A stretch of 20,112 bases of DNA, taken from positions 1-20,112 of IMG/VR virus record IMGVR_UViG_3300045999_007958; one strand, written 5' to 3'. A program made the position numbers and the translations under genes. Source of the DNA: a virus. Of the stretch, positions 2,545 to 19,337 are shown piece after piece; within the stretch, counting starts at the first letter, position 1, and each line of letters starts with the position of its first letter. Below the pieces are notes generated by a model. It was not told where the DNA came from and searched no databases. It saw only the letters and a program-made list of their open reading frames with translations.

Positions 2545-3384
2545 CTAATAATTCAATATCAACAGCTCTTCCCCCATATTTTGTTTTCCACCTTTTTTGG
2601 CTGCGGCTGCTTTAGCAAATTTTTTCCTCTCCCATCTGAACCTATCTTCAGGGTACCATTCGTGTAATAAGTCGAAATCATAATATGATAAACTGAACTT
2701 ACTCTGAACATTACCAAGTAGTTGTGCTAGTCTTTCGTGATCCCCTCTATCGAAATCATGATTAGAATAATAGTTCTCAGTCTTCCAATAAGGAGGATCT
2801 AAGTAGACATATGTCGATGGAGAATCGAACTCTTCGATAACTTGTTGGAAATCACCGTTTCTTACATGATTAATTTTCAAGAAGTGTTCAATCCATTCAG
2901 GTTTTCTTAGTTTGTCTCTGAACGTAAGGTATTTGGATTTGTAATTACCTTTAAGATCAATGAATGATGATGTTTCAGGTTTAGATCCACTAAACACCTG
3001 TGTAACGATGTAGGCATACTTTGCCGCCTTTTCATAATCATAGTCACCAATCTCAGGATTTTCAGAAAATAGTTCTCTCTGAAAACTTTGGAAGAGTTCT
3101 CTGTATTCAGGTGGAGTATTACTTACCCCTTGTTCTTGAACAGGTATCTGATCCATGGCTCTTCCCAATTCCTCAGGATTACCAACACATTGGAATAAAT
3201 TATAGTTTAGTTTGTTGAAGTCGTTGTATACGACATTCTTAAGATTTGGAAACCTTGTAAGGTCCATATTGAAGAAACACCAAAACATTCCTCCGAATGT
3301 TTCAACATATGTTTCCATGTCTTGTGGGTAATATTCCACAATCCATTTTCCGATTTTTGATTTACCTCCGATATAACTTAGCAT
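2545..3384 (-). CDS. dam: DNA adenine methylase (Dam, D12 class)
   Basis: 279 residues. The start LSYIGGKSKIGKWIVEYYP is the usual N-terminus of D12-class N6-adenine methyltransferases (GGKS binds S-adenosylmethionine), followed by ETFGGMF (FxGG, motif I, residues 29-34), then YVYLDPPYW (catalytic DPPY, residues 196-199), and it ends with the family's typical EELLILNY. Length is normal and all key motifs are present, so an active enzyme is expected. Its likely role is methylating phage DNA against host restriction; the recognition site cannot be read from sequence (GATC is typical of Dam). A consensus host-type promoter sits directly before the ATG with only four bases between. The C-terminal KAAAAKKGGKQ insert before the final strand is slightly unusual. 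Confidence 0.92.
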   Translation of the reverse strand: MLSYIGGKSKIGKWIVEYYPQDMETYVETFGGMFWCFFNMDLTRFPNLKNVVYNDFNKLNYNLFQCVGNPEELGRAMDQIPVQEQGVSNTPPEYRELFQSFQRELFSENPEIGDYDYEKAAKYAYIVTQVFSGSKPETSSFIDLKGNYKSKYLTFRDKLRKPEWIEHFLKINHVRNGDFQQVIEEFDSPSTYVYLDPPYWKTENYYSNHDFDRGDHERLAQLLGNVQSKFSLSYYDFDLLHEWYPEDRFRWERKKFAKAAAAKKGGKQNMGEELLILNY

Positions 3385-3388
3385 ATTA

Positions 3389-3419
3389 CAAACATAATCA
3401 AAAAAATGAAAAAAGCAAA
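3389..3419 (-). promoter_or_regulatory. Bacteroidota-type promoter of dam
   Basis: Minus strand: -33 TTTG (3419-3416), 19-base spacer, -7 TATGTTTG (3396-3389), then four bases (TAAT) and the ATG at 3384. Both boxes match the Bacteroidota consensus TTTG / TAnnTTTG exactly. The start codon is fixed by protein homology, so the transcript would have little or no leader. Confidence 0.7.
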
Positions 3420-3420
3420 T

Positions 3421-3585
3421 TTACTTGTAACAATTTTTGTAAGGACGGCAAGATGCCTTTTGTGTGAAACCCATTTTTGAACATGGTGTAGATTTACAAT
3501 AGGATTGACTATATTTCCTAGGTTTCTTAAATTCTTTTTCTTCGAGGTACTTGTATAGTATTCTACGAATTTGTTCACTTAACAT
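3421..3585 (-). CDS. Cys-rich basic miniprotein, 54 aa
   Basis: 54 residues from the ATG at 3585: MLSEQIRRILYKYLEEKEF, a basic linker, then a C-terminal half with four cysteines (SYCKSTPCSKMGF, KASCRPYKNCYK). The spacing C-x4-C and C-x5-C around SKMGFTQKAS looks like a compact motif, perhaps metal-binding. I recall similar short TPCxxMGFxQKASC proteins in large phages and other large viruses, with no known function. A frame-shifted 66-residue ORF over the same bases is its shadow. It lies between DnaJ and Dam; an ATATTTATA motif sits three bases before the ATG. Confidence 0.65.
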   Translation of the reverse strand: MLSEQIRRILYKYLEEKEFKKPRKYSQSYCKSTPCSKMGFTQKASCRPYKNCYK

Positions 3586-3595
3586 ACATATAAAT

Positions 3596-3691
3596 ATGAA
3601 AGAAATCTGTATTCCTTGTAGAGTTTTGAAAGTTATTATCTACACCCTAATTACTGTTGGTGTAATTTGGATCTATCAAACTTTACGTTAA
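3596..3691 (+). CDS. Possible 31-aa single-pass membrane peptide
   Basis: A plus-strand ORF in the gap between DnaJ and the Cys-rich miniprotein: MKEICIPCRVLKVIIYTL continuing to ITVGVIWIYQTLR. It has a CxxC pair, then a clean ~20-residue hydrophobic stretch with basic flanks. Its last 41 bases overlap the antisense 3' end of dnaJ. The hydrophobic pattern is the only support; no promoter or homologue is recognised, so it may be chance. Confidence 0.25.
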   Translation: MKEICIPCRVLKVIIYTLITVGVIWIYQTLR

Positions 3692-4574
3692 GTTTTACGT
3701 ACATATCTCCAACTCCATAACCCTTACCTCTCAATCTTAATGGTTTGGAGCTGTCGAAATCCAAAGGTAAATCCATCTTTAGATCTGATGAAGGGTGTTT
3801 AACTATAATACTATCTTTCTTCAAGTCATCCAAATCCAAATAAAGGTTCAATATTAGATCATTGCCCATCTTCTCATATCCATCAACAGAAACCATTTTA
3901 ACTTGTACGACCAAATTACCATATAGACCATCGTGGTAGTCACCAAGTTCTTGTAACTTAAGGAATTGACCCTCATCAATACCAACTGGTAATTGAAGTC
4001 TTATTGATTCTGAAGTAGGTTTTACTCCTCCTCCATCACAAACATGACATTTGTTAATCATTTTATATCCTTCACCATTGCAAACATTACAAACCTTTCT
4101 TATCTCTTGTCTGAAGAATCCAGATCCTGTGACCATTGAATGATATCCATAACCCTTACATGATTCACAGACTTGTCTACTTCCACCAGTACCTGAACAA
4201 GGTTCACATGCCTTATTTCTGAAATAATTTACATTTATTTGTTCTCCACGGAATGATTGAATTGGATTGATGGTCACTGTTACCACTTTATCGGGTACCA
4301 TAGGTCTTCTCTGTCTTTGCCCACCCCCAAACATGTTTGCGAACATATCTTCGAATCCTTGACCTGCAAATGGGTTTTGTGAACGATTTTTAAGTGCTTG
4401 GCGTTTCTCTTGTGTTCCAATGTTCTCATATGCCTCAGCAATCTCCTTAAATCTTTCAGCACCTTGAGGATTTACATCAGGATGGTACTCCTTAGAGAGT
4501 CTCCTATATGCCTTCTTTATGTCATCATCTGATGAATTCTCTTGAACTCCTAATATTTTATAGTAATCTTTCAT
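3651..4574 (-). CDS. dnaJ: DnaJ co-chaperone (compact, phage-encoded)
   Basis: 307 residues from the ATG at 4574 (KDYYKILGV is the standard J-domain start; an in-frame upstream TTG extension is not part of the gene). J-domain residues 1-63 contain the HPD motif (31-33) that stimulates DnaK. A short G/F-rich linker (about 67-85) follows. The zinc-binding domain has all four CxxCxGxG repeats (CEPCSGTG, CESCKGYG, CNVCNGEG, CHVCDGGG; residues 123-183). The C-terminal substrate-binding region ends with LRLRGKGYG. It is shorter than cellular DnaJ (~375 aa), mainly in the linker and C-terminus. It probably recruits host DnaK for phage protein folding or replication-complex remodelling. Its start codon is one base from that of the divergent gene at 4576. 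Confidence 0.92.
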   Translation of the reverse strand: MKDYYKILGVQENSSDDDIKKAYRRLSKEYHPDVNPQGAERFKEIAEAYENIGTQEKRQALKNRSQNPFAGQGFEDMFANMFGGGQRQRRPMVPDKVVTVTINPIQSFRGEQINVNYFRNKACEPCSGTGGSRQVCESCKGYGYHSMVTGSGFFRQEIRKVCNVCNGEGYKMINKCHVCDGGGVKPTSESIRLQLPVGIDEGQFLKLQELGDYHDGLYGNLVVQVKMVSVDGYEKMGNDLILNLYLDLDDLKKDSIIVKHPSSDLKMDLPLDFDSSKPLRLRGKGYGVGDMYVKLNVKFDRSKLHQQ

Positions 4575-5571: not shown

Positions 5572-5959
5572 CTTCAAAAGGTTTTTGTTGTTCTGTTTCA
5601 AAATCGAAATAAAGTCTCTTGAGTGTTTCAAGATCAGTTGTTTCAAAGGTTTTCTTGAGTGAATCAATTGTTTCTTTGAATAACTTTTCTTTTATCTCTT
5701 TGTCTTTGTTCAACTTGATGACTCTGATAATTTTAGTAATTGTTGCACTTACTTCCTTTTCTTCGTAGGAACAAGCGAATGAAATACCTTTCATATTCGC
5801 ATCCCCTGAATCGTATGGGACAACTTTATCTTCTTCAGTAATACTTTTTGGTAACCCCCATTGCATCGGAAATTTCATATCGAAACTCAAATAGGTCTCT
5901 AACTTTCTGATAGAATGAAGATACTCTGAGAAGGGTTGTAATTCTTTATAAAAACTCAT
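5468..5959 (-). CDS. Hypothetical protein, 163 aa
   Basis: 163 residues, ATG at 5959, sharing ATGA with the stop of the membrane-protein gene upstream (translational coupling likely). The ordered part is roughly residues 1-125 (FYKELQPFSEYLHSIRKLET, then QWGLPKS and SFACSYEEKEVSATITKIIRV, a probable beta-sheet region). The end is charged and disordered (ERPKRVRARKEENNKAD). That disordered end is what overlaps the out-of-frame gene at 5383-5571. No family recognised. Confidence 0.75.
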   Translation of the reverse strand: MSFYKELQPFSEYLHSIRKLETYLSFDMKFPMQWGLPKSITEEDKVVPYDSGDANMKGISFACSYEEKEVSATITKIIRVIKLNKDKEIKEKLFKETIDSLKKTFETTDLETLKRLYFDFETEQQKPFEDGEDGTTSLELVDERTEERPKRVRARKEENNKAD

Positions 5960-13073: not shown

Positions 13074-13874
13074 TTATAGGTAATCGAATAGATCACTCGT
13101 TTCGTTCCTTAGCTTTCGTATTGCCTTCTCTTTGATTTGTCGAACCCTTTCTTTGGTCAAATTGAAGTCATTACCAATATCTTCCAACGTTCTTGTGGAT
13201 CCTGATAGACCATAATAATCTTCAATAATCACTCTCTCCCTTTCATCCAAAACATCCATAATACCCATCAACTTGTCCTTCAACTTACCTTCAGTTGAGA
13301 ATATCTTCTCGGGATTATCTGCGTCAGGATTTGTTAACATGTCAAGAAGGGTATCACCTTCTTCATTAACAGGACTATCCAAATCGATAGTTGTCGGAAG
13401 GTTATGGAACTTCTCAGGTAACTCAATACCGTTAGCATCCAACTCCTTTTTAGCTTTATGCAATTCTTGTACAACGTTTACTGGAAGACGGATGGTACGG
13501 GCATTCTCGTTAAGAGATTGCAAAATAGATTGTCTGATCCACCATACTCCATAAGAGATGAATCTGAGTTTCTTGGACCAGTCGAAGTTGTCAATTGCCT
13601 TCAACAGACCATAGTTACCTTCCGCAATCAAATCGGGAAGATCCAATCCTTGGTTTTGGTATTGTTTAGCCACAGTGATAACGAAACGAAGGTTACCCTC
13701 CAATAGTTCTTTTTTGATTTCGTCAATCTCAGTTTTGGTTAAGAACCCTGATAACATTCTATCAGCAAGTTCTCTCTCCCTTTCAGGAGTCATGACTTTA
13801 AGTCTTCTAACATCTTTTAAGTAAATGGAAATTTCCTCTTGATTGATGGGTGCACCCGTGTTTTTTTCTTTCAT
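13074..13874 (-). CDS. RpoD-like phage sigma factor (sigma-70 family)
   Basis: 266 residues from the ATG at 13874 (a GTG-led extension upstream is antiphase of the neighbouring gene). Region 1.2 (ISIYLKDVRRLKVMTPERER), region 2 (about 57-125: GNLRFVITVAKQYQNQGLDL, then PDLIAEGNYGLLKAIDNFDW and RFISYGVWWIRQSILQSL, which contacts the -10 element), a shortened region 3, and region 4 with a helix-turn-helix (TLEDIGNDFNLTKERVRQIK). Region 1.1 is absent, as in Bacteroidota RpoD. Close to primary sigma factors, unlike T4 gp55. It would redirect host RNA polymerase, probably to later phage promoters. Last gene of an operon driven from 15433-15464 and closed by the terminator at 13037. Confidence 0.93.
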   Translation of the reverse strand: MKEKNTGAPINQEEISIYLKDVRRLKVMTPERERELADRMLSGFLTKTEIDEIKKELLEGNLRFVITVAKQYQNQGLDLPDLIAEGNYGLLKAIDNFDWSKKLRFISYGVWWIRQSILQSLNENARTIRLPVNVVQELHKAKKELDANGIELPEKFHNLPTTIDLDSPVNEEGDTLLDMLTNPDADNPEKIFSTEGKLKDKLMGIMDVLDERERVIIEDYYGLSGSTRTLEDIGNDFNLTKERVRQIKEKAIRKLRNETSDLFDYL

Positions 13875-13878
13875 AATA

Positions 13879-14403
13879 TTATTTTCCGTAGTTATCCAAT
13901 ATGTCTTTTTCATATGGCGTGATACTCTCAACACCTTTTTCTTTGATCTTATCCAAGATTTCGTCGATGGAAGGTTTCCTTATCTTAGATTTTAACTCCG
14001 TTAAAATATCATTAAGAAACTCGGCATCCTCCTCTTCGGTGTAGATTTCTCTTTCCTCAGATCCAAACATCTCTCTAGTCATATCTATTCGAAAATCTGG
14101 ATTCTCTGAATCATTAATAGTATCAAAAAGGTGACCTTTAGTTGATTCATCCATACAAACTGACAAATTGTCATCTACAACTGACAAAATGAAGTAATCG
14201 AATAGACCGTAAAGAGACCCCTCAATATAAGAATAAAGTTCATCTTTGTCAACTTCGCTATCAAAACACAATAACAAGTTACCTGATTTGTGAGAAAATT
14301 TTAAGTGTGGACTATCCACAATTGGTGTGACCGCTGTTGCGATATCCTTACACATTTCTTTCGATTTGAAATCTCCATATATGGAGAGTAGGTATTTTTT
14401 CAT
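13879..14403 (-). CDS. Hypothetical protein, 174 aa
   Basis: 174 residues, ATG at 14403, four bases upstream of the sigma-factor start, so coupled to it. N-terminal alpha/beta domain (KKYLLSIYGDFKSKEMCKDI, SGNLLLCFDSEVDKDELYSY), perhaps ferredoxin-like. Acidic middle (EREIYTEEEDAEF) and a C-terminal helix pair (SIDEILDKIKEKGVESITPY, EKDILDNYGK). That last segment is a common 'DxILDKIxEKGxxSLTxxEKxxLxxY' tail found on various Bacteroidota proteins. Being next to sigma it could modulate transcription, but nothing in the sequence shows this. Confidence 0.75.
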   Translation of the reverse strand: MKKYLLSIYGDFKSKEMCKDIATAVTPIVDSPHLKFSHKSGNLLLCFDSEVDKDELYSYIEGSLYGLFDYFILSVVDDNLSVCMDESTKGHLFDTINDSENPDFRIDMTREMFGSEEREIYTEEEDAEFLNDILTELKSKIRKPSIDEILDKIKEKGVESITPYEKDILDNYGK

Positions 14404-14412
14404 TTTACAAAT

Positions 14413-14895
14413 TTAATTAATAAAGTATTCTCTTCCAAGTTTTCCTGAATGTTGCTTATACCACTTTCCTTCCTTATCCAACCAAACATAAGGATCTGAT
14501 GGATCTTCGGTCCAACCATACTGATTGTAGAACTCAGGTTCTTTCTTCAATAGATTGGCTCTGTGAGATGAATGAAATACTTCGTTACCAATCCACGGTG
14601 GGAGAACCATCTGATCCTGATCAACATCTTCCATAATCATGGTGTTCTTGAATCCACGAACAATCCATTCACCAATGGAACAATTAAGATACATCTTAAG
14701 TGCCGGAACATAGTCTCTCCACATTATGGTACATGGATGGTTCAACCAACCCTTATAAGGCGTGCCATCCAACTTGGGTCTACGAGTGATTGCAGATATG
14801 ATCTGATAAGTCTCAACTCGTTGTTTACCCAATCTCTTATTGTCCAATACTTTAAGAGATTCTTTGAAATCACTAAACGGTAAAAAGATTTGCAT
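14413..14895 (-). CDS. Pyrimidine-dimer DNA glycosylase-like protein
   Basis: 160 residues, ATG at 14895, one-base overlap with the upstream gene. The start QIFLPFSDFKESLKVLDNKR with LGKQRVETYQI, then GWLNHPCTIMWRDYVPALKM, IGEWIVRGFKNTMIMED, LPPWIGNEVFHSSHRANLL and a YGW...PYVW end. This matches the bacterial/phage family starting MQTFLPxxDFxxSAxxLDxKRLGKQRVE, which databases annotate, as I remember it, as pyrimidine dimer DNA glycosylase/endonuclease V type (Pyr_excise). The family's biochemical activity is less sure than that of T4 DenV. It would repair UV-damaged phage DNA. Length is normal and the gene complete. Confidence 0.7.
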   Translation of the reverse strand: MQIFLPFSDFKESLKVLDNKRLGKQRVETYQIISAITRRPKLDGTPYKGWLNHPCTIMWRDYVPALKMYLNCSIGEWIVRGFKNTMIMEDVDQDQMVLPPWIGNEVFHSSHRANLLKKEPEFYNQYGWTEDPSDPYVWLDKEGKWYKQHSGKLGREYFIN

Positions 14896-15428
14896 TATTT
14901 TATTTTAAATTGAATTGTGATACGATTACATCCCATCCACCCTTCTAACAATACCGTTCTAAATTCCAAATGTTTTTTTGGAACGAACGCGTCAATAAAT
15001 TGGATTCCTTCTATTGTTTCTATCATTCTTTCTTGAATATCAGTGAATAGCCCACTTTTGGTATGCATTTGATAGAAGTTACGTGTGAACTCATTATATC
15101 TAATTGGATCAACCAAATCAAATTGAGATTCACTTGCAACCTTGAAATATGGCTCCGAATATAATGTCCAATTAAAAACTTGGGAAATATAATATTTTTT
15201 AACTTCCCTGTACTTGAACGTGGTCGGATTATACAAATCCCATTTCTGATATCGACTTGCCCCTAATAAAACAAAATTTGTATGATCATAGTCTAAACTT
15301 ATAATCTTCTCGATATTACTTCTACCTCGACCTGTCCACGCCAAACGGGGTGAAAGACTACTTCTCACCCACCCTGAGCTAGTGAATGACTTCTCAAATT
15401 GAATTCCTGTAATTGATCTACTTTGCAT
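14895..15428 (-). CDS. Putative PD-(D/E)XK nuclease-fold protein
   Basis: 177 residues, ATG at 15428. Residues 55-79 (LGASRYQKWDLYNPTTFKYR, then EVKKY) fit the PD-(D/E)XK pattern: D64, then E75-x-K77 on the next strand. The N-terminus SRSITGIQFEKSFTSSGWVR looks like the opening helix of such nucleases. The second half (SEPYFKVASESQFDLVDPIR, FIDAFVPKKHLEFRTVLLEG) is unassigned. It could be a restriction-like or repair nuclease, which suits the downstream repair-type gene. The call rests on one motif. First gene of the sigma operon; a consensus host promoter ends only four bases before the ATG. Confidence 0.6.
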   Translation of the reverse strand: MQSRSITGIQFEKSFTSSGWVRSSLSPRLAWTGRGRSNIEKIISLDYDHTNFVLLGASRYQKWDLYNPTTFKYREVKKYYISQVFNWTLYSEPYFKVASESQFDLVDPIRYNEFTRNFYQMHTKSGLFTDIQERMIETIEGIQFIDAFVPKKHLEFRTVLLEGWMGCNRITIQFKIK

Positions 15429-15470: not shown

Positions 15471-15803
15471 TTATAATGCGAAAGATTCACCACATCCACA
15501 GGTCCTACTAGCATTAGGATTTACCCACTGAAATCCCTTTCCATTCAACCCGTCGGAATAATCTAACTCTGTGCCAAATAAATAAAGAAATGATTTCTTA
15601 TCAATGACAACTTTTAATTTTTCATCTACTTGAAAAACTTCATCAGTATTTTCTATCTTATCATCAAAATCCATGAGATAGGATAATCCACTACAACCTC
15701 CCCCTTTAACACCAACACGCAAGTGATGAGAATCAGAAGATAGTTTTGACTCATCCATCAATTTTATTACGTGTTCTAATGCCTTTGGTGAAACGGAAAT
15801 CAT
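15471..15803 (-). CDS. A-type iron-sulfur carrier (IscA/ErpA/HesB family)
   Basis: 110 residues, ATG at 15803. It has the three conserved cysteines of A-type carriers: C37 in [16 protein letters not shown] and C102/C104 in the C-terminal [10 protein letters not shown], plus the family's start [11 protein letters not shown] and the [18 protein letters not shown] end. Length is typical (about 107-115). Such proteins carry Fe-S clusters or iron to client apoproteins in the cytoplasm. In a phage it may supply clusters to phage enzymes that need them. It stands alone between the split methyltransferase's terminator and the sigma operon, with an ATATTTATA motif four bases before its ATG. Confidence 0.9.
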
Positions 15804-15849: not shown

Positions 15850-16755
15850 TTATTTCTTAAGGAAACCAAGTTCGTAAACTAATGGTCTCATTCTATTTTC
15901 CAATGCTTTGTATAGTTGACGGAACTCTTTGAAATCTTCTTGAAAATATTCTTTCCACACAAGTTTAAGTTGAGCATAACCAGCATCCCATGAGTTCAAG
16001 TGGTTTTGATCATTTGCCATAACTTGACGGAGTTCAATTGACCTTTCAACAAGTTCTGTTGCTTTGTCCAATACTACCTTCGCATCAGGCGAAAGTCTAT
16101 CGTATATTCTTTCTTCACCGAATAGAAGTTTGTGAACATAACGGTCTGAAGATGTTCTTGCGTCGTTATACAGTTCATCATATCCGTTTTGGTCCGCAAG
16201 TTCTTTAATCTTTTCCACAGACATCCAAAAGAATTCGTTTTTGATATCCCATTGTTGTTCACCATATTCCACTTGGCGTAAAGAAGCTTGAAAAGATTTT
16301 GAATTAAATAATGAATAAATTAAAGAATCGTTCCGAAAATTATCCCAATCATTTTTAGAAATATCAGGCCTTGTATACTCATCATACCAATTTATCCAGT
16401 CACCATCAATAAGTTTTTTTGCCGAAAAAACACTTAAACTATCTAAAAAATTATTTGAATTGATATAAATTCCTCTATTTCTATGTCCAACTCCTCCTTG
16501 AATATAAATCGATTCTCCATTTCCTCGAATAGGATTTTGTTCATATGATAGAAATCCTAAAGAATTCGACGGTCTTTTATACTTTGAATCTCGAACTGTC
16601 ATTCCACATAAATTCGGAAATTCAATTAATTCACTATGCCCAAAATCACAAAAAACATCCGCTCTATCTTTGACATTTATAGGATGTAATACTTTTTCAG
16701 AAATCTTTTCAATTTCTGTTGTTTCTTTAATGACCAAAACGTCGAAATTATACAT
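15850..16755 (-). CDS. N6-adenine DNA methyltransferase, C-terminal half (split gene)
   Basis: 301 residues from the ATG at 16755; the frame is open six codons further to a TTG at 16773. There is no catalytic motif. It begins YNFDVLVIKETTEIEKISEK, which is the kind of text that follows ...WGLSFSIL in this methyltransferase family. It continues to a helical C-terminal domain (NEFFWMSVEKIKELADQNGY, YVHKLLFGEERIYDRLSPDA, ALENRMRPLVYELGFLKK), probably target recognition plus a C-terminal bundle. The catalytic half is at 17850-19325, separated by a plus-strand homing endonuclease. Joining the two at the CAAAA repeat restores one frame (see the insertion entry). The first ~170 codons are more AT-rich than the rest. 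It may pair with the N-terminal half as a two-piece enzyme. Confidence 0.8.
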   Translation of the reverse strand: MYNFDVLVIKETTEIEKISEKVLHPINVKDRADVFCDFGHSELIEFPNLCGMTVRDSKYKRPSNSLGFLSYEQNPIRGNGESIYIQGGVGHRNRGIYINSNNFLDSLSVFSAKKLIDGDWINWYDEYTRPDISKNDWDNFRNDSLIYSLFNSKSFQASLRQVEYGEQQWDIKNEFFWMSVEKIKELADQNGYDELYNDARTSSDRYVHKLLFGEERIYDRLSPDAKVVLDKATELVERSIELRQVMANDQNHLNSWDAGYAQLKLVWKEYFQEDFKEFRQLYKALENRMRPLVYELGFLKK

Positions 16756-16762
16756 AATATTA

Positions 16763-16767
16763 TTTTG
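16763..16767 (+). repeat. TTTTG junction repeat, left copy
   Basis: TTTTG (CAAAA on the coding strand) inside the open frame just before the C-terminal half; CAA is in the reading frame. The matching copy is at 17863-17867, exactly 1100 bases away. Five bases alone would not be significant; the in-frame rejoining is the argument. Confidence 0.5.
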
Positions 16768-16770
16768 AAA

Positions 16771-16802
16771 CAAATATAACTATATTTATTTAAATAATGA
16801 AA
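16771..16802 (-). promoter_or_regulatory. Host-type promoter facing the methyltransferase C-terminal half
   Basis: Minus strand: TTTC (16802-16799, one mismatch to TTTG), 20 bases, TATATTTG (16778-16771, exact -7 consensus), then 15 bases to the ATG at 16755. It lies in the inserted segment, so the insertion appears to supply the orphaned gene half with its own promoter. Confidence 0.5.
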
Positions 16803-16811
16803 TTTTTATAA

Positions 16812-17861
16812 ATGATTATTTACAAAATAGAAAATAAAAAAAACGGTAAAATATACATAGGTAAACATTGTGGACAAGGCGATGAGAGATGGAAGGCTCA
16901 TTTGAAAAATGCATTAGATAAAACAAGACCTGAACATCTTTATAGAGCAATGAATCTGTACGGTGTTGAAAATTTCACATATTCAGTTTTAGAAAAACAC
17001 CCTATTTCTGTTGGTGATGAATTTCTATCTGAGAGAGAAAAATTTTTTATAAAAAAATATAATTCTAGATCCGATGAAAGCGGATATAATATGACTCAAG
17101 GGGGAGAAGGAATTACTGCACAATTTTGTTCTACTAAAACAAGAAAAAAAATGAGTGATTCTGGTGATAAATTTGATTATGGTGCCTATAGTTGTAATTC
17201 AGGGAAATTAATTAAAGTGTTCAAAAAAAGAGATGAAATCGTAAAAGAATTTCCACAAATAAAACATGTAAGACATGTTAACCACGCATGTTTAGCAAAT
17301 GACCCTTTTTATACAGGAAAAAAATATAGTAGTGGAGCTCATCCAGCTGGTTTAATAATGTGGATTAAATTACCAAATGATACCAATTTTCCCGAAAAAA
17401 TGGAAATAATTGCAGGATGTAAGTCAAAATCGAAATCACCAAGAACAAAAAAAGAATCAGACAATTTAGAAATCGCACAATATACTTTAAGCGGAAATTT
17501 AATTAAAACTTGGCCAAATGTAATCACTCAAGTCTCGAGAGATCTCAGTACAGATTATGGTCCACTTTCAAACGCACTAAATGGTAAATCGTCATCTTTT
17601 TTAAACTTTATTTGGAGGAAATTCGAAAACGGGAAATCACCTAAAAAAATTGAGGGAATAAGAGGTAAAAAAATTGTAACTTTTACAAAAGAACAAATTA
17701 CTTCACTACCAATTATTAAAAATTTAGATGCTAAAGAAGTTTCAAGATTTGATTCTGTAATAGAGGCTCTTTTAATAACAGATATGAAACCAACAGAACT
17801 TTTCGCATGTCTAAATGATGGTATCGAAGATTCTAACGGATTTTCATGGTCATGGATTTAA
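16812..17861 (+). CDS. GIY-YIG homing endonuclease
   Basis: 349 residues, ATG at 16812. The N-terminal nuclease domain (1-95) has IIYKIENKKNGKIYIGKHC, i.e. the GIY element as IIY (2-4) and YIG (15-17); R27 in ERWKAHL; the catalytic Glu region FLSEREKFFIKKYNS (71-85); and GYNMTQGGEG (91-100). The rest is DNA-binding: a NUMOD3-like STKTRKKMSDS (107-117) and two NUMOD1-like units (about 123-172 and 219-271, IAQYTLSGNLIKTW to FIWRKF). It would cut uninterrupted methyltransferase alleles and spread by repair. Base composition is lower in GC than most phage genes here (25-30% in lines counted by hand beyond the N-terminus), consistent with separate origin. Its last 12 bases overlap the stop of the N-terminal half. 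Confidence 0.92.
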   Translation: MIIYKIENKKNGKIYIGKHCGQGDERWKAHLKNALDKTRPEHLYRAMNLYGVENFTYSVLEKHPISVGDEFLSEREKFFIKKYNSRSDESGYNMTQGGEGITAQFCSTKTRKKMSDSGDKFDYGAYSCNSGKLIKVFKKRDEIVKEFPQIKHVRHVNHACLANDPFYTGKKYSSGAHPAGLIMWIKLPNDTNFPEKMEIIAGCKSKSKSPRTKKESDNLEIAQYTLSGNLIKTWPNVITQVSRDLSTDYGPLSNALNGKSSSFLNFIWRKFENGKSPKKIEGIRGKKIVTFTKEQITSLPIIKNLDAKEVSRFDSVIEALLITDMKPTELFACLNDGIEDSNGFSWSWI

Positions 17862-19325
17862 TTTTTGTAAAATTGAAAAACTTAAACCCCAAGATTTTAC
17901 ATCTGCAAAATTTGCAGAATCCATTAAAAATCCTTTCTTCAACTCATACTCACTTATTTTTTTGTTTCTAAATGTTTCAAATGACTCACTAACAAAAACT
18001 GTTGGTGGTGTAAACATACAAATTTTTTCAACTCCTAACTTCATCAATCTATAAATAAATTGAATATAAAGTTGTTCCACACATCTTCCCATTTTTTCTA
18101 TTTTCATCTCTTGGTTTATCAGGTTAATTGATATTCCTTTTTTATTCTCCCCCTCTCCTTTAGTTCCCGCAGTACCATAAGGTGGATTCATTAATACAAT
18201 AATCTCCATACCTGTCTCGATCGCATTTCTCAATCCAACAGGAAGTTTCTCATAATCATCATTTAAGAAGTCATATTGAAACTTCACAGCTTCAGTATTA
18301 TACCCCATCTGATTTGCAGTATCAATGTCAGATTGATTTAAAGTTGAAACATAAAGTTCTTTGAACTTGTGGTCACGAGTTAGGTTACCTGTACCCCAAG
18401 CCGGATCCCAAACAATATATTTCTCTTTCCAATCTTCACCATAAACAGACGCGATGTACTCATGAGCCTTATCCACCCAAATTGCCGGTGTAAAGAACTC
18501 ACCTTGTTTACGACGAGTTGTATCTTCCACAATACGATCAACCACCGCAGCCAACTTATGTTTCTGTGATGGTGTATAAGATGATGAGAAGTGACCAAAA
18601 AACGATTGAAAAGCATCTCTCGATACAATTGAAACCTCACCAAAGGATTTGGTTACAACGGTCTTTCTTTTACTTACAGGGTGAAGATAGTTATCATCTT
18701 TATTAACCAGGATCTGAACAAATAGATTTGCTCTCTCGTTCGTATTAAGTTTGTTTTTTGTAAGAACCTTTTCATCAAAGTAACGGAAAACCTCAGTGAT
18801 GTTCTTATCTGTAACCAAAACCTTACGTTGTACGTTGTCAGTTAACTCTTTAACTTTTTCAATACAATCAAGAAAGTGTTTTGAATCATAAACAAATGGT
18901 TTGATCTCCTCATCTTTCATAAGAGCAAGAATCAAATCACCAATTGTGTGTGCTTGAGACGGTGCAATAGACCAGTTAAGATCCATTTCAAGATACTTCA
19001 GAATATCATTTACGTGAATTGTTAAACATTCGTTTCTATCACCAATAAAAATGGTAGATGGAGGAATAATACCTTTATCATAAAACTTTTTAATATAGAA
19101 TACTGATTGAGCAAGAACCTTCACAAGATCAGACTTACTTGTAAGATTCATATCATCTTTGAACTCCATAAGAGTTCTGATTTTTGAAGTCTTAGACACA
19201 CCAAAACCATCACATCCAAAAGGAGATGTGATCTCCATGTCTTTGAATTTCTTAAGGAAGTTGTGTCGATAGGTATTTTCAACGTCTTTCTCGTTGATTG
19301 ATATGTTTAGTGTTTCGTGCATCAT
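17850..19325 (-). CDS. N6-adenine DNA methyltransferase, N-terminal catalytic half (split gene)
   Basis: 491 residues, ATG at 19325 (the adjacent ATG at 19322 is also possible). Helical N-terminal region (1-265), then GEFFTPAIWVDKAHEY (276-290, HsdM-like), motif I VWDPAWGTGNLT (305-316, S-adenosylmethionine binding), and catalytic LMNPPYGTAG (378-387, NPPY). It ends with ...SWGLSFSILQKLNP and a stop four codons after the proposed junction. The last four residues come from inserted DNA. Motif order is that of large type I/IIG-like adenine methyltransferases; the missing C-terminal region is at 15850-16755. Likely protects phage DNA from restriction. Whether it works without, or together with, the other half is unknown. 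There is no nuclease domain in what is visible. Confidence 0.85.
   Translation of the reverse strand: MMHETLNISINEKDVENTYRHNFLKKFKDMEITSPFGCDGFGVSKTSKIRTLMEFKDDMNLTSKSDLVKVLAQSVFYIKKFYDKGIIPPSTIFIGDRNECLTIHVNDILKYLEMDLNWSIAPSQAHTIGDLILALMKDEEIKPFVYDSKHFLDCIEKVKELTDNVQRKVLVTDKNITEVFRYFDEKVLTKNKLNTNERANLFVQILVNKDDNYLHPVSKRKTVVTKSFGEVSIVSRDAFQSFFGHFSSSYTPSQKHKLAAVVDRIVEDTTRRKQGEFFTPAIWVDKAHEYIASVYGEDWKEKYIVWDPAWGTGNLTRDHKFKELYVSTLNQSDIDTANQMGYNTEAVKFQYDFLNDDYEKLPVGLRNAIETGMEIIVLMNPPYGTAGTKGEGENKKGISINLINQEMKIEKMGRCVEQLYIQFIYRLMKLGVEKICMFTPPTVFVSESFETFRNKKISEYELKKGFLMDSANFADVKSWGLSFSILQKLNP
17863..17867 (+). repeat. TTTTG junction repeat, right copy
   Basis: Right copy of the junction repeat, on the coding strand the CAAAA of the codon for Gln 487 of the N-terminal half. 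Joining here to the left copy at 16763-16767 restores the methyltransferase frame. Confidence 0.5.
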
Positions 19326-19329
19326 AAAG

Positions 19330-19337
19330 CAAATATA
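19330..19337 (-). promoter_or_regulatory. -7 box directly before the methyltransferase start
   Basis: Minus strand TATATTTG (19337-19330), then CTTT and the ATG at 19325: the same four-base spacing as at the Dam and sigma-operon promoters. No TTTG -33 element is found at 17-21 bases; that position falls in the upstream terminator stem. Likely still a promoter because the terminator isolates this gene. Confidence 0.5.

Follow-up and report, generated by a model that had tools for sequence, protein, structure and literature searches.

In Aeromonas phage Aeh1, nrdA is split by mobE, an HNH endonuclease gene to which the split is attributed, and the enzyme has been shown to work (PMC2988022). In gene 43 of Aeromonas phage 25, a seg (GIY-YIG) endonuclease gene may have entered a gene that was already split; in phage 44RR, gene 43 is split without any endonuclease (PMC2988022). 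T4 segD lies antisense to its neighbours, between the complete genes 23 and 24 (PMC2988022). Among restriction–modification enzymes, recognition-domain reassortment and separate specificity subunits are known in Types I, IIB and IIG (PMC3874165, PMC9159934). Here we analyse a locus with features of each of these systems in the virus record IMGVR_UViG_3300045999_007958 (20,112 bp; the window hereafter, meaning this whole stretch). A gene for a restriction–modification-like enzyme is present in two parts, N and C, with an antisense GIY-YIG endonuclease gene between them. We consider it likely that a Type IIG/IIL-like enzyme already encoded by two genes was later entered by this free-standing endonuclease gene.

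The locus resembles phage 25 gene 43 in its T4-like setting, in the GIY-YIG gene between enzyme parts, in the existence of an endonuclease-free split in relatives and in the late entry proposed; it differs in the enzyme concerned, in the antisense orientation of the endonuclease, and in a break that lies within an exchanged cassette with fused and split alleles. With Aeh1 nrdA it shares a two-part enzyme gene with an endonuclease gene in the middle; however, the split seen here also exists without endonuclease, and two-piece function is in our case a prediction. T4 segD is likewise a free-standing GIY-YIG endonuclease gene antisense to its neighbours, but stands between two complete genes rather than between two gene parts. 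An original prediction about this locus knew of no such split in an adenine methyltransferase and of no antisense endonuclease in a split gene. Given segD, an antisense endonuclease is not new in itself; the orientation relative to the split-gene cases and the class of the target gene do differ. The order nuclease, gamma methyltransferase, recognition domain is that of the Type IIG/IIL enzymes DrdV, MmeI and BpuSI, a group in which recognition-domain exchange is a known theme; these enzymes are single chains, whereas the window version consists of two proteins with predicted activities. Finally, the Type IIB systems BsaXI and BcgI also combine a restriction–modification protein with a separately encoded recognition protein (PMC9159934, PMC3874165), but their S subunit has whole recognition domains, whereas the window break falls within the recognition region. 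Limited literature searches turned up no natural split within the recognition region of a phage Type IIG-like enzyme.

The two genes and their uninterrupted relatives

The layout given in the original prediction was accurate: on the minus strand, the N open reading frame (ORF) carries DPAWGTGNLT and NPPY and ends in SFSILQKLNP, the C ORF carries no catalytic motif and shows no known domain, and a plus-strand GIY-YIG gene lies between them (Table 1). That the two ORFs are parts of one protein, as it had proposed, is shown by the relatives (numbered L below). Separate scans of viral contigs with the two halves converged on one set of loci. Both halves form a single frame of ~800 residues in 57 phage loci (near-copies counted), so that the intact gene is present in relatives, as required for a split of the Aeh1 nrdA type; the bacterial loci in which both parts are recognisable are all single-frame and ~800 residues long as well. 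Intact homologues of the kind that the original prediction had suggested looking for do exist in related phages: the fused proteins span the junction in one frame as SFSI, a short variable loop and F-x-x-L. Fused relatives are common in bacterial genomes (>500 stretches in Bacteroidales, Clostridium, Treponema, Selenomonadales and others; L138-L217). Neither half was matched by tblastn among 50,697 records of named phages, and the fused phage proteins that were run against PADLOC and NCBIfam had no good model in either.

In the structural model of a fused relative (L013; mean predicted local distance difference test score (pLDDT) 83), the variable loop connects strands 482-490 and 496-504. The break sits, according to this model, in a turn between neighbouring beta strands, from which two proteins could plausibly rejoin as one enzyme. 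Both halves are also under purifying selection: the ratio of non-synonymous to synonymous substitution rates (dN/dS) between the window and its relatives ranges over 0.04-0.08 (N) and 0.06-0.08 (C), and a comparison of L070 with L071, both split, gives 0.05 (N) and 0.013 (C). The original prediction had remarked that both frames are long and intact; since they are in addition kept by selection, a two-piece enzyme is plausible. We infer that the N and C proteins assemble into one enzyme, which would methylate, and probably cut, DNA at a short sequence specified by the recognition cassette.

A decaying gene, whose pieces would be remnants without joint function, could find an echo in the truncated C gene of L060, possibly a misassembly, but is very improbable: purifying selection is strong (dN/dS 0.013-0.10 for the window halves and between split alleles), the parts have their own starts and leaders, and the split recurs in many phages. 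Note that L060 differs from otherwise identical L059-like contigs by a 124-bp deletion in C (5811-5936) that alters the C-terminus and is either a natural variant or a misassembly.

As for the nature of the enzyme, the label 'adenine methyltransferase' was correct as to the methylase motifs, and incomplete in that a conserved nuclease-like N-terminal domain had been overlooked. Motif I, NPPY and an Eco57I-family match slightly under the cut-off identify a gamma-type adenine methyltransferase in the N protein, with the gamma-type order of motif I, NPPY and recognition domain. Ahead of it, E12, D39, E54, K56 and Q73 are kept in 49/49 viral rows and are almost invariant in bacterial rows (the E, K and Q also in 40 bacterial rows), and this E-D-ExK-Q signature matches the pattern of PD-(D/E)XK nucleases. 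The model of the N-terminal domain (pLDDT 92) has DrdV as its best, though weak, match, with established PD-(D/E)XK nucleases such as Hjc and RecE lower on the list; DrdV is also picked up by profile search, and the model of the whole fused protein matches BpuSI, DrdV, M.BseCI, CamA, BsaXI, MmeI and PglX. The fused relatives, such as L013, are one chain, like Type IIG/IIL enzymes, and the window, with its two ORFs, is not. A separate S subunit with complete recognition domains, as in Type IIB, was not found either, the break lying inside the exchanged recognition region. 'Works like a Type IIG/IIL restriction–modification enzyme' is a fair filing for these predicted proteins.

Endonuclease-free splits and cassette exchange

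The break is also found without an endonuclease. Eleven relatives (the L059 group, L066, L069, L070, L071, L073, L075, L076, L081, L087 and L131) are broken at the same spot, with N ending at most ~5 residues past SFSI-L or its equivalent and C starting closely before the F-x-x-L strand. Stop and start overlap or almost touch in some of them (L076, L081, L087); in L069, L070, L071 and L075 they are separated by a short leader with TATATTTG. This exact box stands at the junction in the window and in these four split alleles, and in 0/57 fused phage loci. (L101, cut at a contig end, and the distant L125 score as split too, and were not relied on.)

The original prediction had derived its junction from a TTTTG present at 16763 and 17863, and deletion of the interval does indeed yield one frame of 791 residues. 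As evidence, however, the exact CAAAA junction had to be rejected: an in-phase shared 5-mer arose in 72% of composition-preserving shuffles of the two short segments involved (the end of N and the open leader of C), as expected by chance. On its plus strand, the window carries 82 copies of TTTTG. The C frame is open over 15850-16773 (minus strand), its best start being the ATG at 16755, and the codons ahead of MYNFDV more probably form the leader of an independent gene. C has an ATG and a promoter-like box of its own and is, on the reading favoured here, a separate gene.

The alternative that the endonuclease itself split a fused allele in this lineage, like mobE in Aeh1 nrdA, with C then using an internal start, has in its favour that L092 and L067, the nearest alleles by methylase domain, are both fused, that the two frames can be made continuous and that gene-splitting endonuclease insertions are known (PMC2988022). 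We nevertheless hold it to be unlikely, in view of the 11 endonuclease-free splits at the same point, the TATATTTG leader common to the window and four of them, and a 5-base repeat no better than chance; for the first two of these reasons, the earlier proposal of a gene split by the endonuclease exactly at CAAAA is not supported. Because the leader of the window C gene is shared with endonuclease-free splits, we favour a gene that was already split.

The break falls in a region that is exchanged between phages. Allele pairs (L073/L074, L076/L078 and L070/L071; L033/L034, L039/L040 and L029/L035 show comparable falls) mostly have 90-100% DNA identity in the conserved parts of N and C and ~45-70% in between, over a stretch of ~740 bp that begins just past NPPY and extends to roughly residue 630 of the combined protein. 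Such a profile is characteristic of cassette exchange within a target-recognition region. In L073/L074 and L076/L078 the flanks are nearly identical, the cassette is different, and a split allele is paired with a fused one, so that the state, split or fused, moves along with the cassette. Supported branches of the methylase-domain tree force nine changes between the two states, and a single clade of split alleles was rejected on these grounds. The cassette tree requires five changes (9.0 in shuffles), and the grouping of all split cassettes in one clade is not firmly rejected on it (approximately unbiased test, p-AU 0.057).

In this locus, the break in a Type IIG-like enzyme falls within the DNA-recognition region, at the very place where phages exchange specificity. 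If the halves can be mixed, this bears on how phages change their modification specificity and on the building of two-part enzymes of new specificity.

The antisense endonuclease and the order of events

The assignment of the plus-strand gene to the GIY-YIG family is firm by profile comparison (Pfam E 4e-7; TIGR01453 above cut-off; PHROG homing endonucleases). The gene is placed between the N stop and the C promoter-like box in such a way that both genes stay open. With its final 12 nt, which include the TGA stop of N, it overlaps N at the 3' end; because of this overlap, the stop is read from the antisense of the final endonuclease codons; even so, N has about the usual length compared with its relatives. 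No endonuclease was found at the junction site in any relative found. As expected for a free-standing homing endonuclease gene, it is a gene of its own, absent from related alleles and unaccompanied by any Rfam match.

TIGR01453 is named for group I intron endonucleases, and an intron or intein that carries the endonuclease and is spliced out had to be considered. Such an element is hardly credible and was rejected: Rfam at gathering thresholds found no family in the window, the endonuclease is antisense, only ~56 nt separate the C ATG from the endonuclease ATG and none are available on the other side, and C has its own leader, as in the endonuclease-free splits. No tRNA was found in the window either.

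Searches that included a single-sequence scan detected full-length, 36-37% identical relatives of the endonuclease in L025 (3379-4440) and L221 (591-1616), divergent and just upstream of the N gene; the endonuclease family thus occurs at two positions beside the enzyme. The GC content at third codon positions (GC3) is 17% in the endonuclease, 19% in the window cassette and 28-31% in the flanks. As proof that endonuclease and cassette arrived together this was weakened, cassettes being AT-rich in nearly all alleles.

These observations bear on the possibility that endonuclease and cassette move together, with the endonuclease driving changes of DNA specificity: it would cut a rival allele close to the junction, and the copying that follows would transfer endonuclease and cassette alike. 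The location of the endonuclease inside the exchanged segment, its GC3 close to that of the cassette and under that of the flanks, and its relatives beside N in L025 and L221 would fit. However, many phages exchange cassettes with no endonuclease there, the GC3 match is a weak one for the reason given, and just one allele has an endonuclease in the gap, all of which makes joint movement distinctly improbable. A self-moving specificity cassette, in which the endonuclease would cut rival alleles near the conserved FADVKSWGLSFSI, co-conversion would swap specificity and one catalytic protein would pair with foreign C halves, is a long shot.

Late entry into an already split gene is the likely order of events, the antisense endonuclease having settled where its harm would be slight. 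Several points weigh against parts of this account. Fold comparison supports the nuclease domain weakly (best E 7e-3), and the model of the fused protein has low template modelling (TM) scores to every whole enzyme. Moreover, the nearest methylase-domain relative of the window (L013/L092) is fused and the window cassette is without close relative (best 38%), so that the state just before the arrival of the endonuclease is not directly seen. Closely related phages nevertheless offer a natural series of the same enzyme in one piece, in two pieces and in two pieces plus endonuclease, through which 'split first, endonuclease later', unsettled for phage 25 gene 43, becomes testable.

Promoter-like boxes and genomic context

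The TATATTTG box at the junction fits the described -7 box of flavobacteria, TAnnTTTG (PMC9723704). The minus strand of the window holds 3 copies (0.8 expected), all just upstream of genes: N (4 nt), C (15 nt) and an ORF starting at 15428 (4 nt). Over 16 related loci, 16/46 copies lie <=30 nt upstream of an ORF start, compared with a mean of 3.9% for permuted words, one of which, rarer than TATATTTG, had a similar upstream fraction (7/19). The box thus looks like a promoter box, and suggests a host among the Bacteroidota. A sigma-70-like phage factor is encoded at 13074-13934 (regions 2 and 4 matched, region 1.2 slightly under cut-off, no region 3 match); it may read the TATATTTG boxes.

Table 1. 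Positions in the window of the enzyme genes, the endonuclease gene and their parts
Feature	Position	Strand	Remarks
N gene	17850-19325	minus	491 aa, ending ...SFSILQKLNP*; predicted PD-(D/E)XK-like nuclease domain, gamma-type adenine methyltransferase and first part of target-recognition region; basis: ORF
Nuclease-like motif region	~18996-19325	minus	Residues 1-110; E12, D39, E54, K56, Q73, Y77
Methyltransferase motif I to motif IV	18177-18407	minus	DPAWGTG from residue 307, NPPY at residues 380-383; basis: sequence, conservation
N-side part of exchanged recognition cassette	17850-18176	minus	Residues 384-491; basis: DNA identity falls sharply past NPPY (allele pairs)
GIY-YIG homing-endonuclease-like gene, free-standing	16812-17861	plus	349 aa; antisense to N and C
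TATATTTG promoter-like box of C gene	16771-16778	minus	ATG 15 nt downstream
C gene	15850-16755	minus	301 aa from own ATG; remainder of recognition region and conserved C-terminal domain
C-side part of exchanged recognition cassette	16336-16755	minus	C residues 1 to ~140
TATATTTG promoter-like box of N gene	19330-19337	minus	ATG 4 nt downstream

At least three of the relatives are large T4-like phages, since a T4 gp23-like capsid protein is encoded on three related contigs of 270-321 kb. In L029, L030, L035 and L050, the enzyme gene is flanked by genes for DnaJ and for a D12-class Dam-like methyltransferase; these two adjoin in the window (2545-4574), whose enzyme gene is elsewhere, near the sigma factor. 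The enzyme gene therefore occupies different places in related phages. The window also encodes a denV-like pyrimidine dimer glycosylase (14413-14895; Pfam E 1e-21) and an A-type iron-sulphur carrier of the IscA/ErpA kind (15471-15803; Pfam E 3e-16).

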